Positions 34,317 to 61,310 of a stretch of 64,000 nucleotides of DNA are shown piece after piece. A program made the position numbers and the translations under genes. Under the pieces are notes generated by a model. It was not told where the DNA came from and made no database searches. It saw only the letters and a list, made by a program, of their open reading frames with translations. Position 1 is the stretch's first letter, and every line of letters begins with the position of its first letter. Origin of the DNA: Zygnema cylindricum. Its lineage: Eukaryota > Streptophyta > Zygnematophyceae > Zygnematales > Zygnemataceae. Location of the stretch: contig JBBHKE010002497.1 in NCBI GenBank assembly GCA_037447655.1, forward strand, positions 119,177-183,176, in the 5' to 3' direction.

Positions 34317-34525
34317 TGAGCTCGGGTAGTCCGGCCGAAGTGGGAGGGGTAGTGGAGATTTTGAGCAGTTCCTCCGAAGGCAGTTCTTCTCAGTCTGTAC
34401 TGGACCGATCCAGGAGGGTGCCACCTTCACGCTCTCATACCACTCAAGATAGTGCTACCAGTAGGCAGCCTCGAGGCCGAACAACTTCCCGGGCTCGGGC
34501 TGGAGAAGGCATCAACAGGAGACGC

Positions 34526-37557: not shown

Positions 37558-38299
37558 AAGAGATCGCTGGAGTATATATGGTTTGATTGCTATTTAAGTA
37601 TGTCGATGTACAATAAGTCATTTAACAGAGTATATGGACTTAGTATAGAATAGTTACAGTTGTACGATACCTCCTACGAAACAAATGTACCGGACATTTG
37701 TTTTGACAGCTGACATTGAAAGCCGGTCTACATCGGACGGCTCATATTCAAGCCGACATTGCAGAATGGCAAATTTGGCAGTTTGCAGTCGTAACGTCAC
37801 CGGATGTCACGTGGCGAACTCCCATTATTCATCAAAAATCCCGGAGTGCATCTCAATAAGTGAGGAGTCAACAGGCGTTTATCACTCAGCCACGTCATAC
37901 AATGATCGTACAGAAAGTACTACGGCTTGTGTACCTTACTGTAGAGTTCTCTGAATGGCTAGGTATATCACTAATAGAGGGTTTAGAGAGGGGTTTTAGG
38001 ACTTAGGAAATTTTGGGGCAACCGCCTCTCTCCCAATGAGCTTGTATACAAAAGGTTCACTTTGACCTATAACAATTAACTGCTCACTTGAGCAAATTTG
38101 GAGATCTCTCTTGCGTCTGACCCAGGGGAGTCAGGCCCTCACAAGGGTGAGGAAAATCAGATCTCTTAGGGTTTAGATTGAATATTATTCTTGTGCAATT
38201 TGGGAAAGTAAAATTTATCCTAGAGGGCTTCCGGTATACTGCTGATTCTGTGTGCCAATGGCGGCCACAGAATTACAAAATGTTTGGTCGTGCATGTCC
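37558..38299. other. Spacer between retroelement fragments
   Basis: No gene or family motif recognised. The recognisable part of the gag-protease element begins at about 38300; the terminal repeats its relative at 53768-60649 would predict on this side are absent. Confidence 0.4.
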
Positions 38300-38328
38300 A
38301 CATCACCACCGATTCGGAATATACCATC

Positions 38329-40592
38329 TCAACCCACTAAACACTCGAAATCATTACATTTAGTGACTAATGCTTGAACGGAAATTTCAACGGACTCATT
38401 TTCGGCTCTTGTTTGAAACCGAAAGATAAGCAGGTCCTTTGTGATTCCAAGGACCGGCTCTGTGGTCCCAGCTGAAATAAGATGGCGGGTAGCTGTAGCT
38501 TGAAGCTTTTCTGCTGTCAGACCTAACTTGAGCACAATTCCAGATCCGAGGATCACGGGTTTGGATCGGTGTCCATGAGAGGTAGAGAAAGGTGAACCCC
38601 GTTAACTGAGAATGATCCCCGAGAATTATAAAGGAAACTGATATGGGGATCGAGGTTACGACGCTCATCCGCAGTAACCGGCTGAACCACTGAGAGACTG
38701 CGGTTCAACTGCAGAGCTCTCAAAGCGGTTGCTGCTGCGACCTCGTCAAAGAGAGGAGGGGCTTTCGAAACTTCTTCCATCATTGCTGAAAGAATACTTA
38801 GTTGTTCCTTTACCCGATGAGCATCATGTATGGTGCCATCAAGTATGGTTAGTGCTTCTGCAGCGATAGAGGAAGCTGTTTCCGGTAGAGGAGGAAGAGG
38901 CTCCTTTGCGAACGAAATTGGGACTCGTGAATTTTGTATTATGCCCACTCGGTTATGGTCTGCCAAGCCCTTCTCAAATGTAGCCACCCGTTGTTGGACA
39001 GTGGAATCGCGAAGGGTTCGCCTGACCAACGACGACATGTGTACAATTGTCTTAGCCATCCCAATAAATTGGGGTTTCTTTTCCGCCATTAAAGCCGCAA
39101 AATGCTCTTTCATCATGGCTGCCATTTTGACTTAAAGCTCGGCCTTCTCTCTCTCTCGACGAGAGATCTTAGGTGGAGCTTCCTCTTTCTCGGTCTCCTT
39201 TGGCAGGTTGACCGGTTTTGCTGAACGGGACAGAATTCCCCTGTTCTTAATCTTTTTTTGATGAGTGAAATAAGGGTCCTTAATGTGGTAGCGGTGGACG
39301 TAATGTTCTTTTTGCTGACAATGAGTGCATGTGGCCGCCTTATATGGGCACATGCGGGCATCGTGCCCCGTCTTCCCGCATCGGAAACAAAATCGGTTTC
39401 CGGGATTAACCAGTGGGGTTCCCATGTCTGGCGTCCTCGGAGGCCTATTGGGAGGCCATGGGTTTTTAGGTGGAGGAGGAGATGAGTGAGCCGGTTCCCT
39501 ATGAGTAGGTTTAGACTGCTCATGGGCGTCCCACCACGATGTTTGCATTTCATACTCCACCGCGCATTGAGTTGCTTGCTCAAATGTGAATTTTAGTCCG
39601 TACATCTTACTGAGGTGGTTTTGTGTAAATCTCTTCGATGGACATGGAAACTGTCCCACAAATTTTTGGACCGCCTCCGCATTAGATATAAGGTCTGGTA
39701 ATGCTTCTCGCAAAGTTTCCATTCGAGCTTGTAGGGCGGGGGCAGTTTCACCCGACCTACGCTCGAAGTTCATCAACTCTTTGATTTGATCTGGGTTTTG
39801 CATCCGGTATTCCTCTTAGAAGATGTCGAACATGACCGAGAGAGGGTGACGTAGGGGGATGGCTCCTCCTGCTCTAGCTTGGACGGCCGCTCATGCAGCC
39901 ACCGCGTATTGGCGAGGAACCTCGGGAATAGCTGGATACAGCTCGTCCCCATTAGCATCTAATACCGCCGGTCTTGCAGCCTAGTATGGAATATCCACTC
40001 GGCGCAAGAATTTGGGTAACCCCGCAAAGGGAGAGAAGTACTCGGTCATAGCAAGAACGTCCTCATACTTGCGAGTATAAAGTGTGAGGGCCAAACCACG
40101 AAGGTATCGATCGAGGAGGGAAAAGGCGACTCGGAGGTCAAACCTATCCTGATATCTGAATGCTAGATCCCTCATTTTCGTGTTATATAACATCCGGAAA
40201 TGAGATAAGAACATGGTGTCTTTTTATCTGAAAAAGTAGAATTACATCTTACCCATGGATCCCTCTGAGGAGGAAGCCATGTCGTCAAACGGAGGATGCA
40301 CCAGTTGTGCCAAAGCTGGGCTGGTAGGGAACCTACGAGTGTGAGGATTTGGAAAAGTTTCCTCCGAAAATTCTTCTTCGGTCCCCTCTAGGTATGACCC
40401 AGATGAAACCGAGGATAATGATGACGCCATTGTCAAACCAGACCAAACCGACGACGATCTACGATCCGCTAGCGGATCGGGTGCGGTAAAATATTCGGAA
40501 AAATCCGGAGGATTCAAAGGCGGAGGACGATAAACTGTACCGCCCCGAGTGGATCTGCATTGATAACGAAGGATTTCCCAATTCGTGGGCAT
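38329..40592 (-). pseudogene. Gag - CCHC zinc knuckles - retropepsin-like reading of the truncated element
   Basis: The N-terminus is MPTNWEILRYQCRSTRGGTV at 40592. A capsid-like part follows (SHFRMLYNTKMRDLAFRYQD, then QIKELMNFERRSGETAPALQ and NAEAVQKFVGQF). Two knuckles come next: CFRCGKTGHDARMCPYK and CTHCQQKEHYVHRYHIK; the last Cys of the second is replaced. Near the C-terminus LPLMDTDPNPVILGSGIVLK ... LVTKCNDFECLVG resembles a retropepsin with DTD in place of DTG. Several frameshifts separate the pieces. No reverse transcriptase, integrase or tyrosine recombinase was found after it. Confidence 0.75.
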
Positions 40593-42025
40593 AAACCAAG
40601 AGAAAAACCTTGACTATAACTATGAAATGTTATGTACGGCCTAACTAGGATGGAGCACGTGTCAGACCAATCCACACTCGTCCAATCAACACACGTAGTC
40701 ACTATCAAGACCCGATGGTCAGATCTAGCAAAAAGCCGAAATACCAAAACCTTTACCCTGCAAACAAGGGGTAAGGCCAAAGGGCTTGATCTTTAAAAAA
40801 CAGGGCCAGGTCTTTAAAAAAAAAGCACAGAGCCGGGTCTTTAAAAAACAAGCACAGAGCTATCCAGGCACCTTCTGGTGCAGATCTACAGCGGCACAGA
40901 AAGAAAAGTGTCTAAACAGTGCCACCCATGGCAAGATCTAGGAAGAAATCCTAATTCAGATAGTCACACTTCAATCTACACAATGCAGATAGCATGCATG
41001 GAAAAACGGGAAATGCAAATGCTCAATCCAATTGGGCTTCAAAGAACCCAATCCACTCCGAACCCTCTAGACGAGTACTCACACTAAATCTGATCGCTCT
41101 TGCACCCGCAATGCATGAATACTCACAAACACCTTTAATACTCTGGCGAGTACTAAAAGTGAGCCGGACTTGTTCGAAACAAGTCGGATTTTGCAGACCT
41201 CCCGAATGTGATCTGCTCCAATTCCAAATAATTGTGCCGAAAACCACAGCTCAACACGAACGAAATTAGTAACCTGTTAAGGTATGCGTATCAGCGTTAT
41301 GCCACGCTATACCCAACTATAAAGCAGTGATAATTATATGTTATAATTCGTGCAGCCTTAATATGTATAAATATATATTTTGTTTTGCTAGATGTTCGGA
41401 ATAATCTGGTAGAATAAAGGAAAGAAAATATCAAATCCAACAAAAACCAAAAATCAACTAAATAGCAAATGGAATTGCAACAAGGAAAAGGAATAAAATG
41501 TTGAAAGATGAAAGAAACTGGAAAACATGAAAATTAAGAACGGAAAAGAGAGTGAGTCCGAAAGTATATTCTGTTGTCCATAGCCATTTCTAGCCATGGA
41601 TTCACCCTCGGAAGCACCACAGACTACCCCAAAAACAGCCTACTTTGGATACACACAGAATTCAACAGAATAAACAAAACAAGCTGAAATTACACTAACA
41701 GATATTATCTAGGCTATATAATAACCTCAAAAAATTTCAGACAAAAATATCAAACAGAGTGATCACATCATCTAGTCAAAGTTGCAGAAAAACAGTCTGC
41801 CAGAACTTTGATAAAACAGACTAACTTCAAAATGAAGTAAAACACAGACCAGTCACACAATAGGCCTGCAAATCTGTGACAATATTAAAAATATAAAGAG
41901 GAACACACACGCAGAATTTCAGATAATTCTGCCAACAGATCTGAGAGTAATCCTCAGATAAAATTACCAAAAATAACCATAAACAGCTTTTGGTCCAAAA
42001 AGTTCCTAAGTTCTGAAATGACTAA
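40593..42025. other. Leader of the truncated gag-protease element
   Basis: Non-coding on inspection. 40614-41400 matches 57970-58740 of the second element, including the conserved ATGCCACG.TATACCCAAC and tataattcgtgca words. 41570-42025 has no counterpart there. Confidence 0.6.
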
Positions 42026-43500: not shown

Positions 43501-44141
43501 CATAGTTCAAAAGTAGGTGAAAGTATGCCCATACAGTATGCCTATTGTATGCAAAACATACAATATGCCCTTAAGACCCATATTGTATTGGTCGAAAAAT
43601 GAAAATAAAGGTTAAGAGGGTTGAGTTGCACATCGATCGATAGAGAATTAAACGGCATGTCTAAATTTTGAAAAAAAATCGGATAAAAAATATTTTTTCT
43701 GTGAATTTTGAGGTGTTTTTTATTTCAACCGTCAGATTTAGACGATCGGACGGTCGCTCATCAAAGTTGCGATCTTAAGAAGATCACATGAAAAGCCCAT
43801 AACACAACTTACGATAGGACAATTTGTCATATTAGCGTCTGCAATTTTGAAGGCCACACTAAATAAAGCCTCAAATTGACCAACCAGGTTGCCCGTCCGC
43901 GTTTTTTTTTTTTTTTTCCGGGGTTTTTTTCCGGCGGAATGTCATCCTACGCCGCGTCAGTTCGCTAAAAAATTTCGTCAGGTGGCGTGCGCTGTACTAT
44001 GATCATACGTCATATTCGTACGATCGTACAAGAGTGTCCGCAACTCACACCCATACAATATGCCTACTCTACGCGAGTTTAGTGCCAAGTTTTGTGCGCC
44101 TACCAAAGGCCTACCATAAAAACGCCTACTTTTGAACTATG
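43501..44141. mobile_element. hAT-like MITE, 641 bp, 8-bp target duplication
   Basis: Ends CATAGTTCAAAAGTAGG and CCTACTTTTGAACTATG. Perfect 8-bp direct repeats GCACGAAA flank it (43493-43500, 44142-44149), as for hAT elements. The left ~350 bp match the 362-bp copy at 45608-45969 in inverted orientation; the rest is extra sequence. No transposase is visible. Confidence 0.88.
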
Positions 44142-44663
44142 GCACGAAACTAACATTTCAAAACAACATCTTCCACAAGGCTCTCCGTACAGTGCAGATT
44201 TCCACCGCGGAATGTTAAGGAAACAGTGAAAGGAAGATGTAAAATATCAGACAAAAGATAAGTTAAACTACAAAGTATGTTAGAATTAGGTAAGAGGGTT
44301 ACCCAAACCCTAATTCCAGGCTGCCAAAACCCGGAATCCGTGACCAAGGAATAGTATGGCAACGACCTAGGGTTTAGAATCACCAAAAATAAACCCTAAA
44401 TCTACCACAACCCTAATTCTGCAGCCAAAACCCTAAATCTGCAATCAAATCCTAATTCTGCAGATTAACCCTAATTCTGATGCAAAATTTAGGTCATACG
44501 CTGTAGCCAAGAAATAGAGTGGCAGCAGAATAGGAGACAAAGATTGAAAGAAAGAAATAGCAGGAGACAAAAACAAAATGTTTTTTTTTTTTTTTTTATA
44601 AAATAAAAATTATATTTTTAATAATTTTTTTTTTTTTTTTAAAAAGAGTCTTTTGGACAAGAA

Positions 44664-46350
44664 TGCTAAGCCACGAGGTAGCTACTAGGCTCTCGGTTCT
44701 TTGTCACATTCTCTACAAGAGTTATCTCAGCATGAGAGCAAAGCAAGAAATATTTATAACCAAAGCAAGGGAAAATCCATATTTGGCCAAAAACACACTC
44801 CTTCCAAATCAACCGAAACACAAACAAACCACACACAAGAAGCCAAACCGTCCAGCTGGGTCCGTGACTTCTTCGTCAACGGCGTCAACGGCAGTTTACT
44901 AACTACTGTCGTGGTGTCGGGAGCATGCAACTTCAAAAAAACAAAGTTGGCATGGCTGGTATTTTGGAGGTCCGTGACTTTTTCGTCAACGGCAGTTTAA
45001 TAACTACTGCCGTGGTGTCGGTAATGGCATCTTCCTTGAATTTTCGCTTTTAACTATTGAAGTATTTATGACTGCTTCTTTTCGAAAATTTAAGAAGACG
45101 CCCGTACACATTTTGAAATTACGACGCTCAAATAGTGTGACGCTGCGACGTCTCTTTTTGGAAATGTCTGTAGACGTGACGATAAATATCCGTACAGCAA
45201 GATCCGGATGCTCTCCTTAACGATCTCCAATCCACCACTTCCACTCAAATGACCAAGCTTGGAGGGAAACCTTCCGATCGTGGCGTTAGGCCGTGTGGAT
45301 TAAAAACGTAGGCAGAAATACAAGGGCAAATATTCGTAACCTATCTAGCCTCTGCAGCTAGCAAAAAAGAAAAAAGAAGAAGCGTGAGCAATCGGTGAGA
45401 GTGAGCAAGAAAGAAGCTCAGCGCCAAGAGAAAATTCTTGTCCAAAAGCTAAATTCTCTAAGTCTGAGAATTAGCCTAAGTACGTGCGCTACACCTACCC
45501 AAACCCTAACCTAAGTCTAGGCTAGTTCACATATAAGATGTTGGCCAATAGGCGGCCAACATCGTCTGCCGTACGCTTGACAAAATCCACGGTCCAAGGG
45601 TGAAAACCATAGTTCAAAAGTAGGCGTTTTTATGGTATGCCTTTCGTAGGCGCCTTTATCGTAAGTTGTGTTATGGGCTTTTCATGTGATCTTCTTAGAT
45701 CACTACTTTGATCAGCGACCGTCCGATCGTCCAAATCTGACGGTTTAAATAAAAAATAACTCAAAACTCACAGAAAAAAAAAATTGTTCGAATGTTTTTC
45801 AAAATTTAGACATGACGTTTAATTCTCTATCGATCGATGTGCAACTCAACCTTGTTACTATTTTTGTTCATTTTGCGACCAATACAATATGGGTCTTAAA
45901 GTCATATTGTATGTTTTGCGTACAATAGGCATATTGTATGGGCCTACCTTCACCTACTTTTGAACTATGGTGAAAACCCTCCCTAACTACATGTATGCGC
46001 GAACCTACATGGGTTTGCGACTTCAAAAATGAAAGTACATCAAAGCGCCGCTAACGCTCCCGGAAATCGCGCTTCGTCGCCCAACCGATATTTCACGTCT
46101 ATACGTCTATATACCGCGTACCTACAAACGAAACAACACAAATCGCATGAAATCCGTACCCATTCAATTAGACGCGTGCGTGAATCGCGTACACACCCAA
46201 AATAAGTGAGCCGATGATATATCGCGAAGCAAACTAAACGTGCGTGCATGAAATCGTGTGCGCGCGCCCAAATCGTGCGCGAGTGCCCAAAAATCGTGCT
46301 TGCGTGCAAAATACTGCGCGTGCCAACAACCGATACGATGCGGCATGACA
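44664..46350 (-). repeat. Terminal repeat (X-type) of the truncated gag-protease element
   Basis: Matches 53959-55029 and 59599-60649. Shared features are the start tRctaagccacgaggtag, the fccggtccagctgtcc-like middle (here ccgtccagctggg), ggccaataggcggcc, ccctccctaactacatg and the end gatgcggcatgaca. It is longer than the others because of the nested 362-bp MITE and some local rearrangement (44860-45300). On the coding strand it starts TGTCATGCCGCAT. Confidence 0.75.
45608..45969. mobile_element. hAT-like MITE, 362 bp, 8-bp target duplication
   Basis: Same CATAGTTCAAAAGTAGG ends as 43501-44141. Perfect 8-bp direct repeats GTGAAAAC flank it (45600-45607, 45970-45977). The empty site is visible in the sister repeat near 54580 (gggtaaaaaccctcc), confirming the insertion limits. 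Confidence 0.9.
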
Positions 46351-46432
46351 CGGCCGTGAAGGCGGCTCACGCGGCGGGCTTGACTCTCGTATTGGACGCG
46401 GGCGACCAGTTCGTGGGAACGCTTTTCAGCTA

Positions 46433-46972
46433 CACCGCCAATCGTTATTAGCGTTGTGTACGCTAATTCTGTCCCGCTTTTTTTTTATTATTATCCATTA
46501 GTGTAGTTCATTATATTTTTTTCTTTATTCTATTTAGGGTTATTTTCATTGCGTTGTCTCTTAAATAGAGTGGTGTACGGTCAGTGTCACACAGTACATA
46601 AATGTACCTTTTTAAGTAAAAAAGTACAATAAATTAGTTTTAGTAACCGCGGACGCATGAGAATGTGCGTTCTAAAAAGGAAAAAAAACCAGGTCGTAAA
46701 AAATCCCGCTCGCACATATTCGTCTGACAGCCGCGTTTCGACCGTGTGAATGTACGATTTGTGTACGATTTGTCAGATTTTGTACGGAGACCTATATTAG
46801 TGTAGGCATGTTTGCGACCGACATTTTTTTTTTTTCAAAGATCCAAATTACCATAACCAAACAATTAGAATGTATGATTTTTTCCAAAATTTTCAAATTC
46901 TTAAATTGCGTACACCACGGTAATTATTTTTATACGCTAAAAAAACTTACACGCTAATAACGATTGGCGGTG
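46433..46972. mobile_element. Stowaway-like MITE, 540 bp, inserted in exon 4 of the decayed nucleotidase
   Basis: Inverted ends CACCGCCAATCGTTATTAGC and complement, with TA at 46431-46432 and 46973-46974. Removing the unit and one TA restores alignment with the intact exon (agctacttctacc), so the insertion limits and target duplication are exact. Confidence 0.93.
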
Positions 46973-48444
46973 TACTTCTACCACGGCAAGGAACTGCCGC
47001 GCGTTCAAAACGCGCTCGACATCGACGTCATGGTGTGTGGTCAGATTTTTTTATAATCAGCGCTAGTTCTAAAATGCGGTATAATAAAAGTATTTTACGC
47101 TTTAAATAGTAAAATAGGTTAGATTATCATTTTAGCCCATATAACAGTATTTGCTTCGGCAAAATTTCGATTAGTGGTGGAAATGTATGTCAATAGAATC
47201 ATGATTTCTTTATTCAATACACTAGCCATATTTTTCCTAATTTTTTCCTAAACATGTTGGGTTAAATAGAAAGTTAAATGAGAAAGTTAATCTCAGACGC
47301 TCATTTTAAGTAAATGGATGGATGTGTTTGATCGTCCTTAGGTAGACTGTCATTTCAACAAAAGATCCATATTAATCAAAGATTCAACGGTAAAAATGAC
47401 TTGTTTTATTAGTGTCAAATTGACGTAAATAAAGGCAATTCATTGCGATTAAATATATTAAAATATTACATTCTATATATAAATTTTAATAACTTTTTAA
47501 ACATGGTGGTGTATTTTGATAAATACCACATTTCGAACTATGATATTTAATCTTTTAAACTTTTGTTTGGTTCGACTTTTGTTTTGTTTGTTTGTTTTGG
47601 ACTTTTGTCTGGTTTATGGGCTTCGAGATTTAGTGTTTTGTTTGGTTTATAGTTTTTCTCGTTAGTGTATTTCTTTCTGTTGTTTCATTGCAGACTCTCG
47701 GGAACCAGGAACTCGACTACGGTTCGGCGGTGTTGGCCTCGTACATCAAGAATCTCACTTTCCCTATTAGTACATGCAATGTGGTTCGAAACGCGACAAT
47801 GTGGTTCAAAACGCGACAGCTAGTTGTACAGTTTGGTCAAACCTGGTCCACTTGTACAGAAGCTGAAAAATGCCGGCGGGTAATATCGTAAAAGTGGGAA
47901 TCGTGGCGTGGACCATTGCCAATACTGCCCAGCTTTCCAATCCGGGTCCCAATATCGACTTTCTTCCGCCGGTTCCCTCCGTCCAAGCGTGCGTGGAACA
48001 GCTCCAGGCGACCAGAATCAATACTATTATTGGTTTGGGGCACGCGGGTGTGCAAGACGACGACGACACGTTGGTGGCCGCCAGCGTGAGAGGTTTGTGG
48101 ACGCTACTTGTGGTGACATCGCATTATAAAATGTATCTTATATTTATAGGCATGTCGTGCAAGATAACCGCATGATACCGTTTCTAATTGTTTTCATACA
48201 CGTGAACTAGCATCGTGTAACATTAAATAACTCCAAAGTGCCCTTTCACCCTAATGTACCTGTGTACCTTAATGTACTTGCCAAAATTCGATTGGGTTCT
48301 GACCAAAGTATGTAGGGTGTATTGCTACGTGAAAATTGTTGGCTTTAAAAAAAAATACGCTGTTCTTCGACTTTGAATCTATATGACTTGTTAAGATTAG
48401 TAGAATCGGAGGATAGAAAGGACGATCCCAATAAAGGGAATGGT

Positions 48445-48516
48445 GAGCCGACCAAGATTTGGACCTGGGACCTATCGCTTAAGCTGTGAATGCACTAACC
48501 ACTGTGCCACCAGCTC
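48445..48516 (-). repeat. tRNA-like sequence in intron 5 of the decayed nucleotidase
   Basis: Second copy of the 28081-28152 sequence, differing by one base by eye. The change is at a position equivalent to the D-loop (cgttag versus ggttag on the minus strand); the copy here matches box A slightly better. Confidence 0.55.
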
Positions 48517-49079
48517 ATATATTGATACTGGCGGTCCAATTATAATAGGTTTTTAGTGTGGATATTTCCACAAATCCTTGTATGTCACGTATGTCAACTC
48601 GACTAATAGATTATCTTAAAGACTTGTATGGCATGGAGTAGAATTTGACGAACTTATTTGGAAGTGTAGGAAATTAGAATGTAATAGCATTGTCGATGTC
48701 TAAGAAACTTGCGTGGGTCTTTGGAACTCTTCTTGTTATGTTTCAATGCAACAAATTCGGGAATTTTACAAATGTTGGACTTACAATGTATGGGGTCATT
48801 AACTTATTAGCCACTTTGATGCGTTATTATATAGGCATTGACCTCGTCATCGGTTCACATAGTCACACTTTCCTTTACAACGGAACAGGCCCGGTTTTGA
48901 ACATAATCAACCTCGCGGCTCGTGATATTCCCATATTCTCGGCATATACTTACCCCTATCCGGTTAAGGCCACATATGACTCCTCTGTGGTGGTGCCCTA
49001 CTACCAAGCCTACTACGCCTCCAAGTGAGTGGTGGAGATTTCACTAATATATTCCCGCTTATTTGATTCTTATTTGTTT

Positions 49080-49405
49080 CTTGTTAAATCGCGAAATTCC
49101 AACTGAAGTGAAAGTACAGGCGAAAATAAAAGTACAAATGTAATATCGTGGAGGTTCGTTCATCTTGTTTCGTACGACCTCCAAACGATATCCGCGTACG
49201 CCATTCGAATCGTGCACCTTCAAATCGCGCACGCAAATATGTATCTCCGTGTCACCAGCGGAATTCTCGGCGTCTTTTCGAAGTAAGTACACAATAAATC
49301 CTGCATTCAAGCATGATTTTAACACAACCAGTATTAGTGTAGCCTCAACCCGTAATATTCCTACAAATAAACAAAATACATGTCCCGACATAATGCGGCA
49401 TGACA
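49080..49405. repeat. Relic related to the gag-protease element's terminal repeat
   Basis: Ends ataatgcggcatgaca exactly where nucleotidase exon 7 sequence resumes, the same terminal string as the ends at 46350, 55029 and 60649. Internal words such as cctccaaacgatatccgcgt and attcgaatcgtgca resemble the 54680-54730 part of the repeat. The left boundary is uncertain. It replaces the intron 6 acceptor of the decayed gene. Confidence 0.5.
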
Positions 49406-50719
49406 ATGGGAAATATTTCAGTGACTTTTGATTTGTCCGGTAATCTGATTGGCAAATCTGGATATCCCATTTTACTTGGAGGGAAAAATAGTTCAAACAA
49501 TGTTGAGCCGGATGCTGACATGGATGCCATTGTGAACACTTTGGTGGCTCCACTTTGCAGCCTTCCGATCGACAGTTGTCGAAACTGCAGCTGTCTTCTT
49601 GAGCAGTGCGATAGAGCAAGTTTTAAGAGAAACAAGCCTTGGCAACCTAATTTGTGTAAGTTGTTTTGTTTGACTTTGTGAAACAGGGTATCTTTAGTTC
49701 TCACTACGGTTAGTCGGTCCTAATTCTCTTCAAATTTTGAAAAATTAGTAAATGACATTCGATAGTAGCTTTTAATAACTGATGTTGACTATGTGGCCAT
49801 TGTACCTTCTTCATGACGCTTTGATCTGGAGCATAAAACAAAATCCGACTTTTGAGACGACGTATGGCCGAGTTAATATTGCCTTCCAAAATAGCGGCGG
49901 CATCCGCAGTCCCATCAACGCGGGTCTTGTGATTGTGGAGGATGCTCTGGCTGTGTTGCCATTCGGCAATGTTCTCACTGTAAAGAAGTTCACAGAATTA
50001 CAACTGAAGAAAATGCTTTCATCGTCTGCGGATAAGTCCAATGCCGGCAGTCCAAATTGAGGCTTCTTGCAGGTGCGTTTGCTGACAAAATTTCTACATC
50101 GAAATTGCTACATTATCATTGCTACATTGATATTGCTACATTGGAATTGCTACATCAAAAGGATTTTTGATGTGTCATCGTCTGATCTTGCAATTATAAG
50201 AACAAACAAGAATAAATCCAAAAAGCAGTGTATCAAAAATCAAACAATTGTTTTTTATGCAAGTAATGCAAATACTAATCATATTCATGAAGAGGGAATT
50301 TAAAATCTTGGTGCAAATCAGCTCGCCGTTCTAAAACATTTTGAACTATTGCGGGATTTCCACTCCATTTACATTAGTGGTTACTGTTCTAGAATTTTCT
50401 TTCCTGGGATTTCAAAAGACACGGCTCTCTAGACTACAAACATCAACAAACATCAACATCTCTAGTTAAGAAATTGGATTCAGCATTATCTTAGATACCA
50501 ATGATTCCCTTGGAATAGATTCCATGATGGAATCTCACATCAAAATATCATATCGAAATTGAAGTGACCTCGTGTTGGCATCTAAACATTCTATGGTCGT
50601 AACCAAACAAGCGAACAATAGTATAATCGCACGGTTCGTACTTTAGACGAGTTTGACTTTTTACGAACTGTACGACGTACTTATCGACAAAATCCTTCAA
50701 AAATCGTAATATTACAGTA

Positions 50720-50931
50720 CATCGTGTATCGCTTTTAGTGTTAATGTTTTTTTTGCCACTTAAAATATCTTGTCACCGTACACACTTGTCGGATTTTCAC
50801 ATGGAGACCGCCAATCGAAAGATGAGAATCTTAGATTTCAATCGCATCCGTCCATAATCCGACTAGAATGTACGGATAAAAGATGTTTAAAGAGACAAAA
50901 AAAACATTAACACTAATAGCGTTACACGGTG
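50720..50931. mobile_element. Stowaway-like MITE, 212 bp, in intron 8 of the decayed nucleotidase
   Basis: Left end CATCGTGTATCGCTTTTAG, right end CTAATAGCGTTACACGGTG; the inverted match extends through TTAATGTTTTTT. TA flanks at 50718-50719 and 50932-50933. Same length as the HAT1-intron unit at 16372-16583. Confidence 0.85.
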
Positions 50932-51397
50932 TAGTGTGGTAAGTATAATTTGTTTGATGAATTTCCATTATGTCAACATCATCCATGTTTTCATCAACAT
51001 CACCCTAACTCTTCAAATATCCTACAGCCAATCAGATTTCAGTGCATGCCTTTTTTAAAAGTTTAATTTTCTTCTTTCTTTCAGGTCACCGGAGTCTACT
51101 ATGCTTTCGATACCAGCCTTCCTATCGGCTCCCGATTACTCGATGCAAAATTGCTTAACCATGTAACCAAATGTCTTACCCCGATTGTCGACACCGATTA
51201 TTACAGTTTTAAGGTGAACGAATTCACCGAAAACGGTGGTGATAACTACCCCGATATTCGCGACGCGATCCCCGTTTATCCTTCGGGCCGTTTATTAAAC
51301 GATATTGTGGCTGACTATATTAATGCGACGTCACCTGTAAACCCGGTCGTCGAGTGAAGAATTCGTAATGTGAACGGCGCGCAAGAAACATATACTA

Positions 51398-51898
51398 CAC
51401 CGCGCATCGTAATTAGAGTAATGAAAAAATTAGAGTAAAAAAAGAGAAAAAAACAATTAGAGTAATTTACTCTAATTTATGTGATAGAACTATTTCAAAA
51501 GGGAATTTACTCTAATTTATGCGGTGTACTCTAATTTGGCAAGTTAATATCCTCTACTGTAAATAAGGTATTCGTACAGAATTTGACAAAACGTACAGTT
51601 AATCGTCACTATGACGTTTGCACTACGTGGTTTGTTAAAACGCAGTTATATGATAACGACCTGTATTAAATCATTATTTATACTTTTTGATTTAATAAAG
51701 TACAATTTTGCACGGTTTAACACCCTTCGTACTCCACACTATTTAAAAAATACCTACATTAAAATTAAAAACGCTAATTAAACTTTACGGTAAATAGAAT
51801 AATGAAAAAAATAGAATCGTTTATTATATTTCATGTGATAGAGTCGAAATTTCGAGCGACCGAATTAATGTAATTTACTCTAATTACGATTCGCGGTG
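51398..51898. mobile_element. Stowaway-like MITE, 501 bp, inserted in exon 9 of the decayed nucleotidase
   Basis: Near copy of 7686-8186 with equal length, ends CACCGCGCATCGTAATTAG and its near complement, TA at 51396-51397 and 51899-51900. The left flank gaaacatata is exon 9 sequence; the right flank gtgtaccaaatgc resembles the continuation ccagtaccaatttgc in the intact gene. Confidence 0.92.
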
Positions 51899-51900
51899 TA

Positions 51901-52574
51901 GTGTACCAAATGCGTCAAACCGTACTAAAATTCATACTAGAACTGCTTGGTATTTTGTACATTCGTACAAAAAGTGTCAGATAAAGGCCTCGACACGCGA
52001 AAGTGAGTGCGTTGACACGAAAAGGCGCACTCAGATTTGATTCCCAGTGAATAAAAACGGCGTAAAATCACGCGAGCCTGTTCTCACTTGTTCAAACGTC
52101 GATAATGTGAATAGCGGCAACAGTGGCTACACTACAAGGAAAGTGTATTCAAATTAGAGTTATGAATAAATAAAAGTATTTTTTTTGGCATAAAATTTTG
52201 AACCCAAATTAGAATTAATAACACTCATTGTTTTTTTACACTAACTATTTCTTCAAGCTAATAGCGATTCATGGTGTTAGGTGTCACTATTGAAAAGCGG
52301 AAAACAATGTGATGAAATAAATTGCTTTTCGCCCAAATAACGATGGGCACTGTCTAGGTCGGTGCCGCTTTTTTGGACTTTGAAAAGTGAAAACAAAATA
52401 ATCTTTAATACCACCGGTTGTCTTCTTTCTAACGCGAATCATTTGTCCACGTCGCTCGGACTTCAAGTGTAAATAATAATACAAAAATAAACGACACGCT
52501 ATATTGCTATAAATATTTGAGCAAAGAATTGATCATGACAGTGACTGTTTTGGTTGCGCACAGTCACGTTGAAA
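51901..52574. other. Spacer with a degenerate MITE-like unit
   Basis: Non-coding. A possible decayed TA-flanked unit runs from about 52133 (after gcTA, CACTACAAGG) to about 52276 (GATTCATGGTG). It has ATTAGAGTTAT and CTAATAGCG words like the other MITEs, but the ends match poorly. Confidence 0.4.
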
Positions 52575-52800
52575 CTCTGAGACCTCCATAAGTCCTCAAA
52601 GTGGACAGCTTCCAAGAAGCCTCTAAGATAACCCTAACCCCTTTGTGTTTCAGCAAGAATAACTGTCACCTTGGCAAACAAAAACTCTGACCACATTCAC
52701 CTCTGTGAAGGCAAGACTCCGGTGAGTCGATAGCGAAAAGAATCTCTGAATTTGCTCCCCAAAGCAGTAAGTTATGGAGGGTCAAAGTTGACCTTTTGTA
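52575..52800. repeat. Dispersed repeat, copy 1
   Basis: Shares ordered blocks with 63725-64000: tcttcc/cttcc..gaagcctcta, cacctctgtg, actcc..tgagtc, tagc.aaaagaatc.ctgaa and taagttatg. The family is not recognised; no coding or terminal repeat signature was seen. Confidence 0.5.
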
Positions 52801-52891
52801 CAAAAGCTCTCGACGGACGAGAGTTATGCGAACGCCTTTTTTTCGATGTGATTGATTTTTTGTTTAGTGCGATTTCACGTGCGAGCGCGAT

Positions 52892-53126
52892 TCTATTAAA
52901 TCATTATTTGTACCTTTTTACTTAAAAAAGTACAATTTTGCACGGTCGAACGTCGTCCGTACTCCACAATATTTAAACGAACCTATATTACAATTTTTTA
53001 CGCCAATTAAACTTACCTAAATTAGAATAATGAAAAAAATAGAATCGTTTACTCTATTTGATGTCATAGAGTCGAAATTTCGAGCAACCGAATTAGATTA
53101 ATTTTCTCTAATTACGATTCACGGTG
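52892..53126. mobile_element. 5'-truncated copy of the 501-bp MITE, joined to a nucleotidase exon 9 fragment
   Basis: Corresponds to the right half of 7686-8186 (taaatcattatttgtac ... attacgattcacggtg). TA follows at 53127-53128, and then exon 9 sequence begins at ctatgcttttgatacc. In the intact gene that point reads tcTActatgc, so the TA is the exon's own target site. Confidence 0.85.
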
Positions 53127-53128
53127 TA

Positions 53129-53331
53129 CTATGCTTTTGATACCAACCTTCCTATTGGCTCCCGATTACTCGAGGCAAAATTGCTAAACCCCGTAACCAA
53201 ATGCCTTACCCCGATTGTCGACACCGATTATTAGTTTATTACAATTTTAGGGTGAACGATTTCACCGGAACTTGCTCTTCATCCCAAACATGCTCTCTCA
53301 CAACCACTTCTTATACTTGTGGTAAGTTTGT
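53129..53331 (+). pseudogene. Third fragment of 5'-nucleotidase exon 9
   Basis: Matches exon 9 of the intact gene from the YYAFDT codons through NPVTKCLTPIVDTDY. A stop interrupts there (ttattag), and an internal deletion joins NDFTG directly to the CSSSQTCSLTTTSYTCG end. It closes with a consensus donor (gtaagt). The terminal exon and 3' UTR that would follow are at 60743 onward, beyond the inserted retroelement. Confidence 0.85.
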
Positions 53332-53600
53332 AAAAATCTTTTGTGAAGTTTTTTTTTTAAATATGGAATGTCCATGTTGTTTAAATTTATCCTTTCCGTT
53401 TAATGATTTATATTAGCATGCCAGATTCGTGTTATGTTGCATGTTGGTCAATTGTATGAATTTCTTATACTTGTGGTAAGTTTGCAAAATCCCTTCTCTT
53501 GCTTGTTCATATTGTTTTAATTTATCCTTTTCATTAATTGATTCATATTAGCATGCAAGATATCTTTTGTTTTTCATGTTGGTCAATTGAATCAATTACA
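53311..53600 (+). repeat. Tandem duplication of the exon 9 donor region, about 150 bp period
   Basis: ttcttatacttgtggtaagt occurs at 53310-53336 and again at 53461-53480. Each is followed by the same trailing sequence (taaatttatcc / taatttatcc, ttaatgattcatattagcatgc-like). The second copy supplies a duplicate 5' splice site. Confidence 0.7.
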
Positions 53601-53767
53601 TCCATTACATCTTTGGAGCGCTAATAATAATGAATTTTTTTTACGGCGTTGCGTTCAGTTTATGTTTCTAAAAAAAGGAATTGTAAAAACCGTTAAAAAT
53701 CCTAAAGAACCTTCAAAATTGACCTTGACGTTTTATGATTTCGACGAATTACTTTCTGAAGTAGGGA

Positions 53768-53958
53768 TGTCGTGCATGAGAGACAAGCAAGCGAACATGC
53801 ATCAAAACCAGCAAAGTCATGCTCACAAACATATATAACAACGAAAATAAATATGAAGTGCCACAAAATATATACACCATCTGAAGGAATAAAAATGAAA
53901 ATGACTCAGAGAGAGAAGGGGAAGAATACTCCCCTAGAGTGAAGTGGACCCAATAATT
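53768..53958 (-). repeat. Repeat Y2 of the split-direct-repeat element
   Basis: 191 bp from tgtcgtgcatgagagacaa to gacccaataatt on the plus strand. Same length as Y1 (55032-55222) with a handful of differences. It directly adjoins X2 at 53958/53959. Confidence 0.85.
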
Positions 53959-55029
53959 TACTAAGCCACGAGGTAGCCACTAGGCTTTCGGGTCTTCCAC
54001 GTATTCTCTACAAGAGATATCTCAAAAGAAAGCAAGAAGCAAAATAATCACTTCCAACCAAAACCAAGAAAATCGGAATTAACCAAAAATGACACTTTCC
54101 CAAGAAAACCGAAATGCCACACACATAAATAAACTCAAACAAACCGTCCAGCTGTCCGGAAAACGGCGCAGCTTGACAGAAGATGCCACACCTCAAGCCT
54201 CCACTCCACCAACCGCCAAAAAGACAAATTTGGAGGGAAACCTTTCGGACTTGGCCGAAGCCGTGTGGATTAAAAACGAGAGAGAAACAAAGGCAAATAT
54301 TCTTAACCTATCTAGCCACTATAGCTAGCTAGCAATAAGAAAGAGAAAGCATGAGCAATCGGTGAGAGAGAGAGCAAGAGAAAAGCTCCGCTGCCAAGAG
54401 AAAATTCTTGTCCAAAAGCTAAATTCTTCAAGTCTGAGAAATAGGCTAAGTAAGAGCTACGCTAGGCCTAAGCAAAATTAGCCTAGGTCTAGTTTACTTT
54501 ACATGCACAAAACTACTAAAGATGTTGGCCAATAGGCGGCCAACATCGTCTGCCGTACGCTTAACAAAATCCACCGTCCGAGGGTAAAAACCCTCCCTAA
54601 CTACATGTATGCGCGAACCTACATGGCTTCGCGACTTAAATAAAATATGATATATCGAAGTGTCGCCCGGGAATCGCGATTCGCCTCCAAACGATACTCC
54701 ACGTCCATACTTCGAAATCGCGTGCATACGCACGAATCGAAGCATACCGCACGAAATAATCCAAATCGAAATACCTGCGTACGAAATGAAAAGTATCGCA
54801 CGGAATTAGTGCGGTTCAACAACATATAAATAAATGAACTGACGCGAAATTTTGCACGTGCAAACAAAAAAGCTAGACGTGCGTGCATCAAATCGTACGT
54901 GCATGCATGAAATTGCGTGTGCATGCATAAAATCGCGCGTGCGTGCATTATATCGTGGGCGCGCGCCGAATATTGCGCGTGCGGGCATAATATCATGCGC
55001 GCGAGCAGCCGACACGGTGCGGCATGACA
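53959..55029 (-). repeat. Repeat X2 of the split-direct-repeat element
   Basis: 1,071 bp from tactaagccacgaggtag to gatgcggcatgaca-type end (here ggtgcggcatgaca). Closely matches X1 (59599-60649); the right end carries many alternating cgtgcgtgcat/gcgcgcg words. A short open reading (54089-54328) is shared with X1 but has no known motif. Confidence 0.88.
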
Positions 55030-55031
55030 GT

Positions 55032-55222
55032 TGTCGTGCATGAGAGACAATCAAGCGAACATGCATCAAAACCAGCAAAGTCATGCTCACAAACATATAT
55101 AACATCGAAAATAAATATGAAATGCCAAAAAGTATATACACCATGTGAAGGAATAAAGATGAAAATGACCCAGAGAGAGAGGGGGAAAAATACTCCCATA
55201 GAGTGAAGTGGACCCAATAATT
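55032..55222 (-). repeat. Repeat Y1 of the split-direct-repeat element
   Basis: 191 bp, direct copy of Y2. Separated from X2 by the two bases gt (55030-55031), and followed on the plus side by a run of ten C, which on the coding strand is a G-rich purine tract just before Y1. Confidence 0.87.
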
Positions 55223-55769
55223 CCCCCCCCCCAACTCCTTAGCCTGTAGAGGAGCTGGTCAACACACCTGAGGACGCAAACAGCAGCAATGGTCAGCCGG
55301 GTTGAAAGATAATGGAGGAGAGAGTCACTCCATGTGGAACCCTTGATCACCACCTGTACATATATAAACCCTCTGCAAACTCAACATCCCATTAGTATCG
55401 CTATCCACCACATGGAGAATGTGTGGAAAGACCTCGGTGTCGACAGTATCCAAGAGATAACGCGAGTCGAGGAGAAAACCGGGCTCACTAAAACTATCTC
55501 GAAGGTCGATACTGGAAAATGCAGGGAGAGCGGAAGCCAAATGTGCCATAGTGGGCAACGGCTTGCGAGCAGAGACAAGAGGGAGGCAAATTTGCGTCCC
55601 GGAAAATTAGAGGGGCGGTAGGAGAAGGTGTGATCATTCATATCTACTCCCCCACCGATTCGAAAGATAACATCCTGTCCCTGTAAGCATTCGTAGTCGT
55701 TGCATTTGGTGACTAATGCTTAGACAGAAACTTCCACGGACTCACCTTCGGCTCCGTTTTGGAATCAGA

Positions 55770-57966
55770 AGATGAGAGGGTCCTTGGTGATTCCAAGCAC
55801 CGGCTCCGTGGTACCGACCGAAGTGAGAAGCCGAGTAGCCGTTGCATAAAGCTTGTCTGTGGTCAGACCAAGCTTGAGCGCAAATCCGGATCCGAGGATC
55901 ACGGATTTGGCTTCGGTGTCCATGAGAGGTAGAGAAGGAGCAACACCATTAACGGAGAAGGACTTTCAAGCATTGTCTATGAAATTGATGTGAGGATGAA
56001 GGTCACGGGGCTCATCTGCGGTAACCGGTTGAATAACTGAAAGACTATGGTTCAGCTGCAACGCCCTGAAAGCGGCGGCTGCAGCGAACTCATCAACAAC
56101 GGGAAAGGCTTTGGGAACCTCATTAGAAAAGGGAGAGGCCCTGGGGGCTTCATCAATCATGGTAGAAAGGATGCTTAGCCGTTCCTTGACTCGATGTGCA
56201 TCATGTATGGTACTATCCAGAATGGTGAGAGCTTCAGCCACAATAAAGGAAGTTGTATGTGGTAGAGGTGAGAGAGATTCTTTCTCGAAAAAAAGTGGAA
56301 GACGGGAATTCGGGAATTTACCGTCTCGATTGTGATCAGGCGAGCCTTTATCAAAAGTAGCTACCCGTTGTTGGACCGTAGAATCCAGAAGGATTCGGCC
56401 GGCCAACGATGGCATGTGGACGACTGTCCTCGCCATCCCCGTGAATTGGGGTTTCATTTCGCCCATGAAGGCAGCAAATTGCTCCTTTATCATGACGGCC
56501 ATCATGAATTTTCACTCGGCCTTTTCCCTCTCTCGTCGAGAGATCTTAGGCGGAGTCGCCTATTTCTCGGTCTCCGTAGGAGTAGTGACCAGCTTGGCAG
56601 AACGGGCAGGAATTCCACCGTTCTGAATCTGATTCTGATATGAGAAATTAAGGTCCTTAACATGGCAACGGTGGACATAATGTCCCTTCTGGTTGCAATG
56701 GGTGCATGTGGCTGACTTATCCGGGCACATACGGGCATCGTGCCCAGTGTTTCCACATCGGAAACACAATCGGTCTCCAGAATTAAATGGCGGATTTCCC
56801 ATGGCCGGCGTCTTTGGAGGCTTATTAGAAGGCCACGAGTTCCTCAAAGGTGGTGGGGATTGGTCAAATTGGTTTCCTAGCGATTCCGAATTTTCATGAG
56901 CATCCCACCACGACGATTGCATCTCATACCTAACCGCATATTCAGTCGCTTGCTCAAAGGTAAATTTCAACCCGTATGTTTGACTGAGATGAGTCTGAAT
57001 GAATATTTTCGATTGAGGAGGAAACCGCCCCACGAATTTTTGGACAGCCTCTGCATCGGACATAAGGTTTGGTAATGCTTCCGGAAGGGTTTATATTCTA
57101 GCTCGTAAATCTGGGGCAGTCTCACCCGGCCTACGTTTGAAGTTCATCAACTCTTTAACCTGATCTGAATTTTGCATCCGGTATTCTTCTTGGAGAAGAT
57201 CGAACATGATCGATAGCGGGTCACGTAAAAGAATTAATCATCCCAGTCTAGCTGGAACTGCCGCAAGAGCAACCACAGCATACTGCTGAGGAATCTCGGG
57301 GATGGCTGGATATAGCTCATCCCCATTAACGTCCAATACTGTTGGAACAGCTGCCTGGTAGGGAATTTCTACCTGGCCGGAAACGGTTGGAAGTCATGAT
57401 AACGGGTGAGAGTGCTCTGTCATTTGATAGATACTCTCATACTTTCGTGTGTATAAAGTTAGAGCCGAACCCCGAAGGTATCGGCCGAGGAGAGAGAAAG
57501 CGACCCTAAGGTCAAAGCGGTCTTGATAACGAAATGCCAAGTCACGCATTTCGGTATCATAAAGCATACGAAAATGGGAAAGAGACATGGTGTCTATCAT
57601 TCCTGAAAAAAAAAATTGCATCTTCCCCATGCCCCCCTCCGAAGAGGAAGCCATGTCGTCAAAGGAAGAATGCGTTGGTGGTTCGAAATTTGGATTAACC
57701 GGAAATTGAAATGTGAGAGGATGAGAAAATATTTCCTCTGAAAAGTCTTCTTCGGTTTTATCTAGGTATGACCTAGAGGAAACCGAGGATAATGGTGAGA
57801 CTGTGGTCAATACTGACCGAACTGACGGAGATCTAGAGGTCGCAACCGAAACTGGTGCGTTCGTAGACTCGGAAAAACTAGAAAGATCTAACTGCGGTGG
57901 ACGGAAAACTGTCCCGCCGCGGGTAGATCCGGATTGATAACGTAAGTTATCCCAATCCGTGGGCAT
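55770..57966 (-). pseudogene. Gag - CCHC zinc knuckles - retropepsin-like reading of the split-repeat element
   Basis: Opens at 57966 (MPTDWDNLRYQSGSTRGGTV). A capsid-like part follows (DMASSSEGGMGKMQFFFSG, SHFRMLYDTEMRDLAFRYQD). After breaks it reads DAEAVQKFVGRFPPQSK and TFEQATEYAVRYEMQSSWWD. Two complete knuckles come next, CFRCGNTGHDARMCPDK and CTHCNQKGHYVHRCHVK, then a helical region (VQQRVATFDKGSPDHNRDG). A retropepsin-like segment near 55770-55925 contains LMDTEAKSVILGSGF and GTTEPVLGITKD. Frameshifts and stops at about 57400-57060, 56505 and 55965 break it. It is collinear with the reading at 38329-40592. Confidence 0.75.
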
Positions 57967-59598
57967 AAACGAAGAGAAAACCCTCGATTACGACTATGAA
58001 AGAACGGAACGGCCTAATCGAGGTACGTCAAATGGAAGGCCAAACCACACAAGACAAGCTAACACACGAAGTCTCTATCAAGACCCGGTGGTCAGATCTA
58101 GCAAGAAGCCGGAATACCAAAACCTCTACCCTGCAAACAATGGGCAAGGCCAAAGGGCCAGATCTATAAAAACAAACAAAGAACTATTCAGACACCTTTC
58201 GGTGCAGATCTATTGCAGCTCAGACAGAAAATCAGACAGAAAATTGTCTAACAGTGCCACCCACGGCAAGATCTATGAAAGAAAATCCAATCTAGATAGT
58301 CACAGGAAAACTCAAGGCCACTCACGGCCAGATAGCATGCAAGGAAAGCATAGAAAATGCAAATGCTCAAAAGAAAGGTTCGTAATAGAACCAATCCACA
58401 CCGATCCCTCTACACGAGTGTCCACCCTATATGGTGACGCTCTTGTACCCGCAAGGCATCGGGATACTTACAAACACTTTTAATACTCTGGTGAGTACTA
58501 AAAGTGAACCGGATTTGGTTGAAGCAAGTCGAATTTTGCAGAGTCCTCAAGAACGTGATCCGCCACGGTTCCGAATAATATTACCCAAGACCACCACTAA
58601 ACACCCAGGCAATTAGTAACCTGCTAGGGTATGCGTATCAGCGCTATGCCACGTTATACCCAACTATAAAGCAATGATAATTATATGTTATAATTCGTGC
58701 AAATCTAATATATATGAATATATATTTTTACTTTGCTAGGTTTTATGAATGATTAAATTTGGCAAAGGATAAAGAAAGAGAATATCAAATCCACCACAAA
58801 CCAAACATCAACTAGCCAGCAAAGGAAGTTGCACTAAAGGAAAGAAAGATAAGAAATATTGAGAAAAGTTCAAAATAAAACACAATGTACGGTAAAATTG
58901 GGCAAAAAGGTTTCCCAAACCCTAATACCACGCTGCAAAAATCAAAAATCTGCGACCAAGGGATGGTAATATGCTGACCTAGGGTTAAGAATTCCAAAAA
59001 ATAAACCCTAAATCCGCCCAAACCCTAAATCTGCGGCCCAAACCCTAATTCCGCAGATTAATCGTAAAAATCTGACATAAAATCAGACCTAAATCTGCAG
59101 ACTAGAAATAGAGTGGCAACAAGATATAAGGACAAGGATTGTAAGCAAGAAATAATAAAACAAAAAACAAAAACAAACTGTGTTTTTTTTTTTTATAAAA
59201 TAAAATTTATAAATTAAATTATTTTTATAATATATTTTCCCAAGGCAAAACTGAAAGCAAAAGCAAAAATAAAGAGAAAGTAGAATGAAACTTGTAGAAA
59301 GAAAAAACAATGGGAAAAAAACCAAATCAAAAATAGGTGGAAGAAAATATAGAAATGAAAAGATGGATTTTATATTGAAAATAATGTATTTTTGTATATT
59401 TTTTTTCTTTTAGATTTTTGTTCTCACACCAAACTGAGAAGCAAAACTGAAAATGAAAGATAAAGTGGGAGGTAAATGGAAAGACAAAAACAAGAATAAA
59501 AACTGAATATGAAAGGTATATATATTTTTTAATTTATTTGAAAGAAAAAAACTTTTTAAAATATGTGCTTTTAAAAAGTTAGACCTTTTGGACAAGAA
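57967..59598. other. Long non-coding leader of the split-repeat element
   Basis: Lies between X1 and the gag start on the coding strand. It includes a segment conserved with the other copy (58615-58740), telomere-like CCCTAAA / CCCTAAT words at 58915-59060, and an A/T-rich stretch at 59150-59580. No reading frame with a motif was found. Confidence 0.6.
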
Positions 59599-60649
59599 TA
59601 CTAAGCCACGAGGTAGCCACTAAGTTCTCGGGTCTTCCACGTATTCTCTACAAGAGTTATCTCAAAAGAAAGCAAGAAGCAAAATAATCACTTCCAACCA
59701 AAACCAAGAAAATCGGAATTAACCAAAAATGACACTTTCCCAAGAAAAACGAAATGCCACACACATAAATAAACTCAAACAAACCGTCCAGCTGTCCGGA
59801 GAACGGCGCAGCTTGACAGAAGATGCCACACCTCAAGCCTCCACTCCACCAACCACCAAAAAGACAAATTTGGAGGGAAACCTTCCAGACTTGGCCGAAG
59901 CCGTGTGGATTAAAAACGAGACAGAAACGAAGGCAAATATTCTTAACCTATCTAGCCACTATAGCTAGCTAACAATAAGAAAGAGAAAGAATGAGCAATC
60001 GGTGAGAGAGAGAGCAAGAGAAAAGCTCCGCTGCCAAGAGAAAATTCTTGTCCAAAAGCTAAATTCTCTAAGTCTGAAAATTAGGCTAAGTACGAGCTAC
60101 GTAAGGCCTATGCAAAATTAGCCTACGTCTAGTCTTATTTACATGCATGAAACTACTTAAGATGTTTGCCAATAGGCGGCCAACATCGTCTGCCGTACGC
60201 CTGATAAAATCCACCGTTTGAGGGTAAAAACCCTCCCTAACTACATATATGCGCGAACCTACATGGGTTCGCGACTTAAATAAAATATGATATATCAAAG
60301 CGTCACCCGGGAATCGCGATTCGCCTCCAAACGATACTCCACGTCCATAATTCGAAATCGCGTGCATACGCACGAATCGAAGCATACCGCACTAAATAAT
60401 CCAAATCGAAATACCTGCGCACGAAATGAAAAGTATCGCACGAAATTAGTTCGGTTCAACAACATATAAATAAATGAACTGACGCGAAATTTTGCACGTG
60501 CGAACGAAAAAGCTAGACGTGCGTGCATCAAATCGTGCGTGCATGCCTAAAATCGCGCGTGCGTGCATTATATCGTGCGCGCGCGCTGAATATCGCGCGT
60601 GCGGGCATAATATCGTGCGCGCGAGCAGCCGACACGATGCGGCATGACA
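59599..60649 (-). repeat. Repeat X1 of the split-direct-repeat element
   Basis: 1,051 bp from tactaagccacgag to gatgcggcatgaca. It is preceded on the plus side by leader sequence, not by a Y repeat, which is what distinguishes this layout from an ordinary LTR element. Confidence 0.88.
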
Positions 60650-60742
60650 GGGAAGATGTAATGTGACTGGGATGTAAGAATTGATCTCTAACAACTGTTT
60701 ACTTACTAATTCCTAATTCGTTTAGCTTGACTCTCTTTGCAG

Positions 60743-61310
60743 TGCCTTAAATTGCACTTTCGTTTTTAACGTCGGCGAGATATAATTTGTCTCCACCTAC
60801 CATCGAATACTCAGGGGCCAATACAGTCGAGGAAAAATAAATGAGTGCGTGATTTAATTAGTGAGAGCGTAAACAATTTCACGAGCCTATAATGTATTTT
60901 CATGATGAGAATTTCACACAACATTTTTACAACTTGAAGTGCAATATCTAACGTGCGTGGAGACAATAAGCACATGCTATTTATATTATGTCCTTTTGCC
61001 CTTATTTTGTTTGTAAGGTTGTTGGTGTACAGGGTACCATGTTGTCTTAGTAGTACACAAGGCAATAAAAACATTGATGTTTTTTTTACCATTTTCTTAA
61101 TGCAACCCAACTCAAAAAACCTAATGTTCTCCCTTAATGAGTATGGTAATTGGCGTGGGAATATCGAAAAATGGAAGACCTTTTTAATTATGCATGAGAA
61201 ATTTGACCCGTAAGAAATACAAAATAAAATCGTTTCGGGGATCTTATTTTTGTTGTTTCTTGTATAAATGTTGGTGTTTTGCTATGGAAAAATTCTCCAC
61301 AAAATAAATG
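60743..61310 (+). pseudogene. Terminal exon and 3' UTR of the duplicated 5'-nucleotidase
   Basis: An acceptor (ctctttgcag) and eight coding bases TG CCT TAA mirror the last exon CG CCA TAA of the intact gene. The following UTR aligns piecewise with 30491-31030: taccatcgaata.t..gggg, aataaatgag.g, ttgcaaccca/atgcaacccaa, catgagaaatttgac.cgtaa and aaatgttggtgttttgc. It is cut off from its exon 9 by the inserted retroelement. Confidence 0.8.

Follow-up and report, generated by a model that had tools for sequence, protein, structure and literature searches.

How does a retroelement come to be bounded by two different sequences, each of which recurs once more inside it? The question is raised by a gag-protease element of the streptophyte alga Zygnema cylindricum, which occupies 53768–60649 of a 64,000-nucleotide stretch of contig JBBHKE010002497.1 (positions 119,177 to 183,176 of the forward strand; GenBank assembly GCA_037447655.1). 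This whole stretch is referred to as the window, and coordinates without a locus name are positions within it. Read along the coding (minus) strand, the element has the order X1–leader–gag–protease–G10–Y1–AC–X2–Y2; identical long terminal repeats (LTRs) at both outer ends are not the case here, the outer ends being X (5′) and Y (3′). Here we describe it as a multicopy, non-autonomous gag-protease retroelement of LTR type, whose integrated form is probably a circular permutation.

Layout of the window copy

Self-comparison and reading of the sequence resolved the minus-strand element into the following parts. X1 (59599–60649), the 5′ repeat, meets host DNA with its outer end TGTCATGC and is followed by a leader of around 1.6 kb (57988–59598) and by a gag-protease reading frame with eight in-frame stops (55600–57966; the frame extends to about 55384). 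A tract of ten Gs (55223–55232) lies immediately before Y1 (55032–55222), which is separated from X2 (53959–55029) by the dinucleotide AC (55030–55031). Y2 (53768–53958) closes the element, its outer end ...GACA again adjoining host DNA, and the letters GGGA stand on both sides as a target duplication (53764–53767 and 60650–60653). All four repeats are direct, and at Y1|X2 the inverted ends GACA and TGTC enclose the AC spacer. The split direct repeats, the gag between them and the GGGA flanks are thus present as the preliminary description had reported. X1 and X2 differ at 50 of 1,050 aligned sites (4.8%, standard error 0.7), with 3 insertions or deletions comprising 22 gap bases, and Y1 and Y2 differ at 11 of 191 (5.8%, standard error 1.7). 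Because these divergences are similar, the two pairs are about equally old, as expected from one event; together with the GGGA flanks, this agrees with the single insertion that had been claimed.

Two further features of these repeats and the leader were observed. The outer end of X (54877–55029 and 60517–60649) consists of degenerate tandem repeats of around 20 bp, whose number apparently varies among X copies. Several TTTAGGG-like motifs, which we take to resemble plant telomere repeats, occur on the coding strand of the leader (58900–59070).

The same order recurs across the genome

Searching the 352.8-Mb genome assembly with Y returned 631 candidates, 40 of which were scored. Around these we read 32 loci, numbered here with an L, as 20 stretches of around 10 kb and 12 of around 2.6 kb. 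The order X1–leader–gag–tail–Y1–X2–Y2 was read end to end in four copies: that of the window, L018, L026 and L027, the last having lost parts of gag and gained an insertion within X2. L026 is a young copy, with no differences between Y1 and Y2 (0/191) and 6 in 1,270 between X1 and X2; its X2 is shortened, and 39 nt of internal DNA with a G tract precede Y2. A second copy in the window, copy B, is also on the minus strand. Its internal part (38279–41547) is around 73% identical and cut off on the 3′ side, and its leader and X1 (44228–46350) contain later insertions. As in the window copy, X1 of copy B joins the leader directly, with no Y between, and ends outward at the identical base of X.

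Both outer ends were read in 17 copies (the window copy and 16 of the 32 loci), and in none of them does a Y adjoin X1; L036 was judged on 8 upstream bases, and L017 has an opposite-strand Y-like match 3.6 kb upstream. An exact 4-bp target duplication flanks 10 of the 17, with letters that differ among copies, and none has a longer one. In the control, in which left flanks were paired with the right flanks of other copies, 2 of 272 pairs had a 4-bp match. For L024, whose X has an altered first base, the end was placed by one base.

The loci read also include partial copies, solo X–Y units (for example, L009, L014 and L028), which start with TG and finish with CA, and units of the form X–internal–Y without X2–Y2. 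The latter are represented by L022, with the duplication ATAA, and by L025 and L037, which were judged by their 3′ ends alone. L016 and L020, whose flanks are similar, were treated as a single insertion, and similar repeat arrays surround L009 and L012. L016 (2118–6050, 3.9 kb) and L020 (6190–7382, 1.2 kb) each carry an insertion at the identical position of the tail, with a 5-bp overlap at 251–255, probably a single nested element within duplicated DNA. In L018 (Y1), L025, L028, L029 and L030, Y belongs to a subtype in which around 50 bp near its start are duplicated internally.

Proposed replication signals would place the LTR elsewhere

At the border of X1 and the leader, ATTCTTGTCCAAAAG (59585–59599) is the exact reverse complement of CTTTTGGACAAGAAT within X1 (60044–60058), and both are identical in copy B. 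We propose that CTTTTGGACAAGAAT is the 5′ end of the RNA and acts as a self-primer, for which ATTCTTGTCCAAAAG would be the binding site. The match spans 15 nt; nowhere else among the 4,341 start positions of the internal region does it reach 12 nt, and the best of 2,000 shuffles of X1 reached 11 nt. Eight copies have a recognizable X1/leader border (the window copy, L018, L019, L020 and L024–L027), and the primer site is exact in six of them, with a base changed in L018 and a base lost in L020. Folding of the RNA from the 15-mer to the border, taken alone, gave predicted structures for the window copy, copy B, L026 and L027 in which the 5′ end pairs with the border site. Shuffled sequences folded as well in 1 of 100 cases for the window copy (z score −2.8) and in 0 of 20 for copy B (−4.6); the folds of L026 and L027 are given without shuffles.

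At the other end of the internal region, the G10 tract is a candidate polypurine tract. A G-rich tract directly precedes 13 of the 15 listed internal copies of Y, those of L022, L023 and L038 being imperfect; the start of Y was not read in L018 and L025, where it falls within a duplicated stretch. The element thus appears to have primer and polypurine sites of LTR type. Because the primer site comes right after X1 and the G tract right before Y1, the LTR seen by reverse transcription would be Y–X, while insertion uses the ends X...Y.

One junction is fixed and the other varies

The two internal junctions behave differently. The Y|X pattern GCACGACA–N(0–8)–TGTCATGCCGCA had 155 matches in the genome, and its reversed control had none. 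In all 100 junctions listed of the 155, exactly 2 nt separate Y1 from X2; these letters are GC in 63, AC in 19, GT in 11, AT and GG in 2 each, and GA, CT and AA in 1 each. With the spacer GC, the junction GACA-GC-TGTC is a perfect palindrome.

The X|Y pattern GGCTTAG–N(0–14)–AATTATTGGGTCC had 41 matches in 14 forms, and its reversed control had 1; three of the matches are clustered on contig C2652 and are perhaps not independent of one another. The pattern misses junctions that have lost the start of Y or the end of X, and L013 and L026 show that such junctions exist. Beyond the final base of X (T or C), the matches read ATA (12), AT (8), ATT (4), A (3), nothing (3) or ATC (2), with ATG, ATGA, ATAT, AAT, ATTCTGG, ATTCG and ATGGGGGCG found once each and a G replacing the last X base in two. 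Compared with the primer site, ATTCTTG, 36 of the 41 junctions begin with its first base and 32 with at least its first two; a G stands before Y in 7. Where the ends of linear cDNA have been joined, as at the junctions of 2-LTR circles, one would expect primer-site letters and then Gs resembling the G tract. L028, L029 and L030 share a Y subtype, have unrelated flanks and differ in their X|Y junctions (ATAT, ATA and A, respectively). On our interpretation, the constant length of Y1|X2 would come from its being copied from RNA, whereas X2|Y2 would be made anew each time; the variability of X2|Y2 shows, indirectly, that joining occurs afresh.

Proposed route to the integrated form

We propose the following route. 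Transcription would start inside X1, so that the first 15 nt of the RNA could pair with the site just past X1 and prime from it, and ordinary LTR-style reverse transcription would then yield a linear cDNA of the form Y–X–internal–Y–X. Its ends, the end of X and the start of Y, would be joined, most simply as a 2-LTR circle, creating the new X2|Y2 junction (in the window copy, the border at 53958/53959). Each LTR would hold an internal inverted pair of integrase ends, ...GCACGACA–RY–TGTCATGC..., in which RY is a purine and a pyrimidine. A DDE-type integrase supplied in trans would cut one such GACA–RY–TGTC pair inside an LTR and insert the DNA at target cuts staggered by 4 bp; the duplication is observed, the enzyme inferred. 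The product would be X–internal–Y–RY–X–Y, and in the window copy the AC spacer would be the internal integration site. Recombination between X copies would later leave solo X–Y units, and recombination between Y copies perhaps X–internal–Y. The circular intermediate with a Y–X junction that the preliminary description had posited, or an end-joined one, is supported, and other copies keep the same order. Whether the family regularly integrates as 2-LTR circles, by way of an internal palindrome resembling a circle junction and with X2|Y2 as the fossil of each copy's own circle junction, we regard as an even question.

Several observations weigh against this proposal. Seven of the 17 copies lack a target duplication (L013, L017, L018, L019, L035, L036 and L039). 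In the commonest X|Y form, YATA (12 of 41, Y here being T or C), neither the primer site nor the G tract accounts for the final A, and agreement with the primer site over one or two bases is weak for any single junction. Support for the fold of the window copy over shuffles is modest (z −2.8), and the transcription start at CTTTTGGACAAGAAT is inferred only. The integrase would have to act in trans: Pfam scans showed no integrase domain in the open reading frames (ORFs) of the window copy and L026. Furthermore, a closed circle and an end-to-end tandem of linear cDNA are indistinguishable.

Competing explanations

The X–internal–Y copies (L022, L025 and L037) could have come from 1-LTR circles, as cutting such a circle at the same palindrome yields exactly X–internal–Y. 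Recombination of Y1 with Y2 after insertion yields the identical structure, and we consider the 1-LTR origin possible, if doubtful, for these copies.

For the complete copies, the substrate might have been linear cDNAs joined head to tail, or an end-joined template-switch product of reverse transcription, in place of a closed circle. An identical product and identical junctions are predicted, and the near-identical repeat pairs of L026 are compatible with either kind of substrate. Such a substrate, however, requires two molecules or an additional switch, and we judge it unlikely.

Still less probable is a non-autonomous element of DIRS/PAT or Ngaro type that passes through a circular intermediate and is mobilized by a tyrosine recombinase in trans; the preliminary description had drawn the tie to DIRS/PAT elements from the repeat order. 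The repeat order does correspond to the split direct repeats of PAT and Ngaro elements, A1–internal–B1–A2–B2 (PMC4157794, PMC6681497). The same order is attributed there to the PAT/Ngaro/VIPER elements, which include the algal Toc and Kangaroo, and PAT-like families are known in green algae (PMC3266345). By contrast, those elements encode a tyrosine recombinase, and DIRS1-like insertion is said to yield no target duplication (PMC3266345), whereas the Zygnema element has 4-bp duplications of varying sequence in 10 of 17 copies, an LTR-type primer site and G tract at the places proper to them, an aspartic protease, and an X2|Y2 junction that varies from copy to copy. The internal-junction spacer (AC in the window copy, mostly GC elsewhere) is likewise distinct from the flanking sequence. 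The tyrosine recombinase domain PF00589 had no match in the genome but was found in all 14 control genomes (14/14), although a divergent recombinase might have gone undetected. The DIRS/PAT tie is therefore not upheld.

Finally, an ordinary LTR element, its LTR being X or X–Y, with a neighbouring solo LTR or a rearrangement can be practically dismissed: solo X–Y units that begin with TG and end with CA do exist (L009, L014 and L028), but the composite is repeated at sites with unrelated flanks, the Y1–X2 gap is just 2 nt in every junction listed, and the primer site follows X1 while the G tract precedes Y1. A solo LTR beside a second element was ruled out by the genomic copies of the same composite, and an assembly artefact by its presence at unrelated sites and by the divergence within both repeat pairs.

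Coding capacity

Between X1 and Y1, the window copy encodes a gag with a CCHC knuckle (PF00098, E = 4e-05). The retropepsin-like segment that had also been noted is weak in the window copy (best E = 0.068, with DTE replacing DTG); L026 has an open frame of 910 codons with DTGA and a match to Asp_protease_2 (E = 8e-04, under the curated Pfam cut-off). Pfam scans detected no reverse transcriptase, integrase or recombinase domain in the ORFs of the window copy and L026, in accordance with the non-autonomous character proposed earlier. The ratio of nonsynonymous to synonymous substitution rates between the window copy and copy B is 0.157 over 758 codons of the gag-protease frame, compared with 1.155 and 1.768 when the remaining two frames are read. 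A functional gag-protease was therefore maintained over a long period in these lineages, and the layout does not reflect the decay of a single copy.

In L026 the gag-protease frame reaches the G tract, and its final 130 residues (7281–7670 of the locus) contain a stretch of cysteines and histidines (FHMECLSPPL..CC..C) that, to our eye, recalls a PHD finger; these 130 residues had no Pfam match. No relative of the element protein was found in a large protein collection, where part of the searching scored only the roughly 8,000 candidates that had the most words in common with the query, and a PDB sequence search gave no match. The viral and genome collections searched held no relative of the element. 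The AlphaFold model of the protease segment (predicted local distance difference test score, 37) was too poor for fold comparison.

Neighbourhood in the window

The element interrupts one of two 5′-nucleotidase-like gene copies (26716–30582 and 46351–60845). The copy at 46351–60845 starts where copy B ends, X1 of copy B abutting it, and is broken up by the main element and other repeats. Its paralogue at 26716–30582 matches the 5′-nucleotidase C-terminal domain (E = 7e-08) and has no element at the matching place. At the exact site of insertion, the aligned sequences have diverged too far for the target letters to be read. A fragment at an intron/exon border of the interrupted gene (49087–49405) ends with the last 13 nt of the element, ATGCGGCATGACA; it was not counted as a copy, as its end is like X but its body is weakly X-like (2 of 200 shuffles as good).

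Inside X1 of copy B lies a repeat of around 360 bp (45609–45968) with the ends CATAGTTCAAAAGTAGG and CCTACTTTTGAACTATG, and an inverted related copy is found at 43501–43816; by eye and by self-comparison, the pair looks like a miniature inverted-repeat transposable element. The ORFs at 34465–36043, judged by eye, are remains of a Copia-type polyprotein.

Relation to known elements and significance

The family has features of LTR retrotransposons (the 4-bp duplication in 10 of 17 copies, a primer site past the 5′ repeat and a polypurine tract before the 3′ repeat) but lacks their identical outer LTRs. Terminal-repeat retrotransposons with GAG (TR-GAG) of plants are likewise non-autonomous and encode gag only, and differ in having ordinary LTRs. 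Self-primed LTR retrotransposons (Tf1/sushi and, in plants, the Tcn1 and TAR clades; PMC6317226) resemble the Zygnema element in a primer site past the 5′ LTR with predicted self-pairing and in a CCHC gag with protease. Theirs is an ordinary LTR–internal–LTR insertion in which the primer site and polypurine tract bound the LTR, whereas the insertion described here ends inside that LTR. An account of retroviral integration gives target duplications of 4–6 bp for retroviral integrases and recounts a 1984 claim that spleen necrosis virus integrates through an artificial internal circle junction, later abandoned in favour of linear DNA (PMC11054761). The likeness is the use of an interior palindrome resembling a circle junction; the difference is that the retroviral claim was set aside, whereas here the palindrome belongs to the layout of a natural family.

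In the literature, judged from titles and the openings of abstracts, we found no description of this combination of features. TOC1 of Chlamydomonas reportedly has an odd split arrangement of its long terminal repeats, maybe a related layout. Our literature search found no account of its structure.

The DNA of retroviruses and LTR retrotransposons is held to integrate in linear form, with circles taken as dead ends. If our proposal is true, this family would be a counter-example to linear-only integration, and one accessible to experiment in a living host, as its integrated order would make sense only after end-joining, with a join that varies per copy beside a fixed palindrome with a 2-nt spacer. 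Split direct repeats would then not need to imply a tyrosine recombinase, and annotation from repeat order alone could misfile elements.

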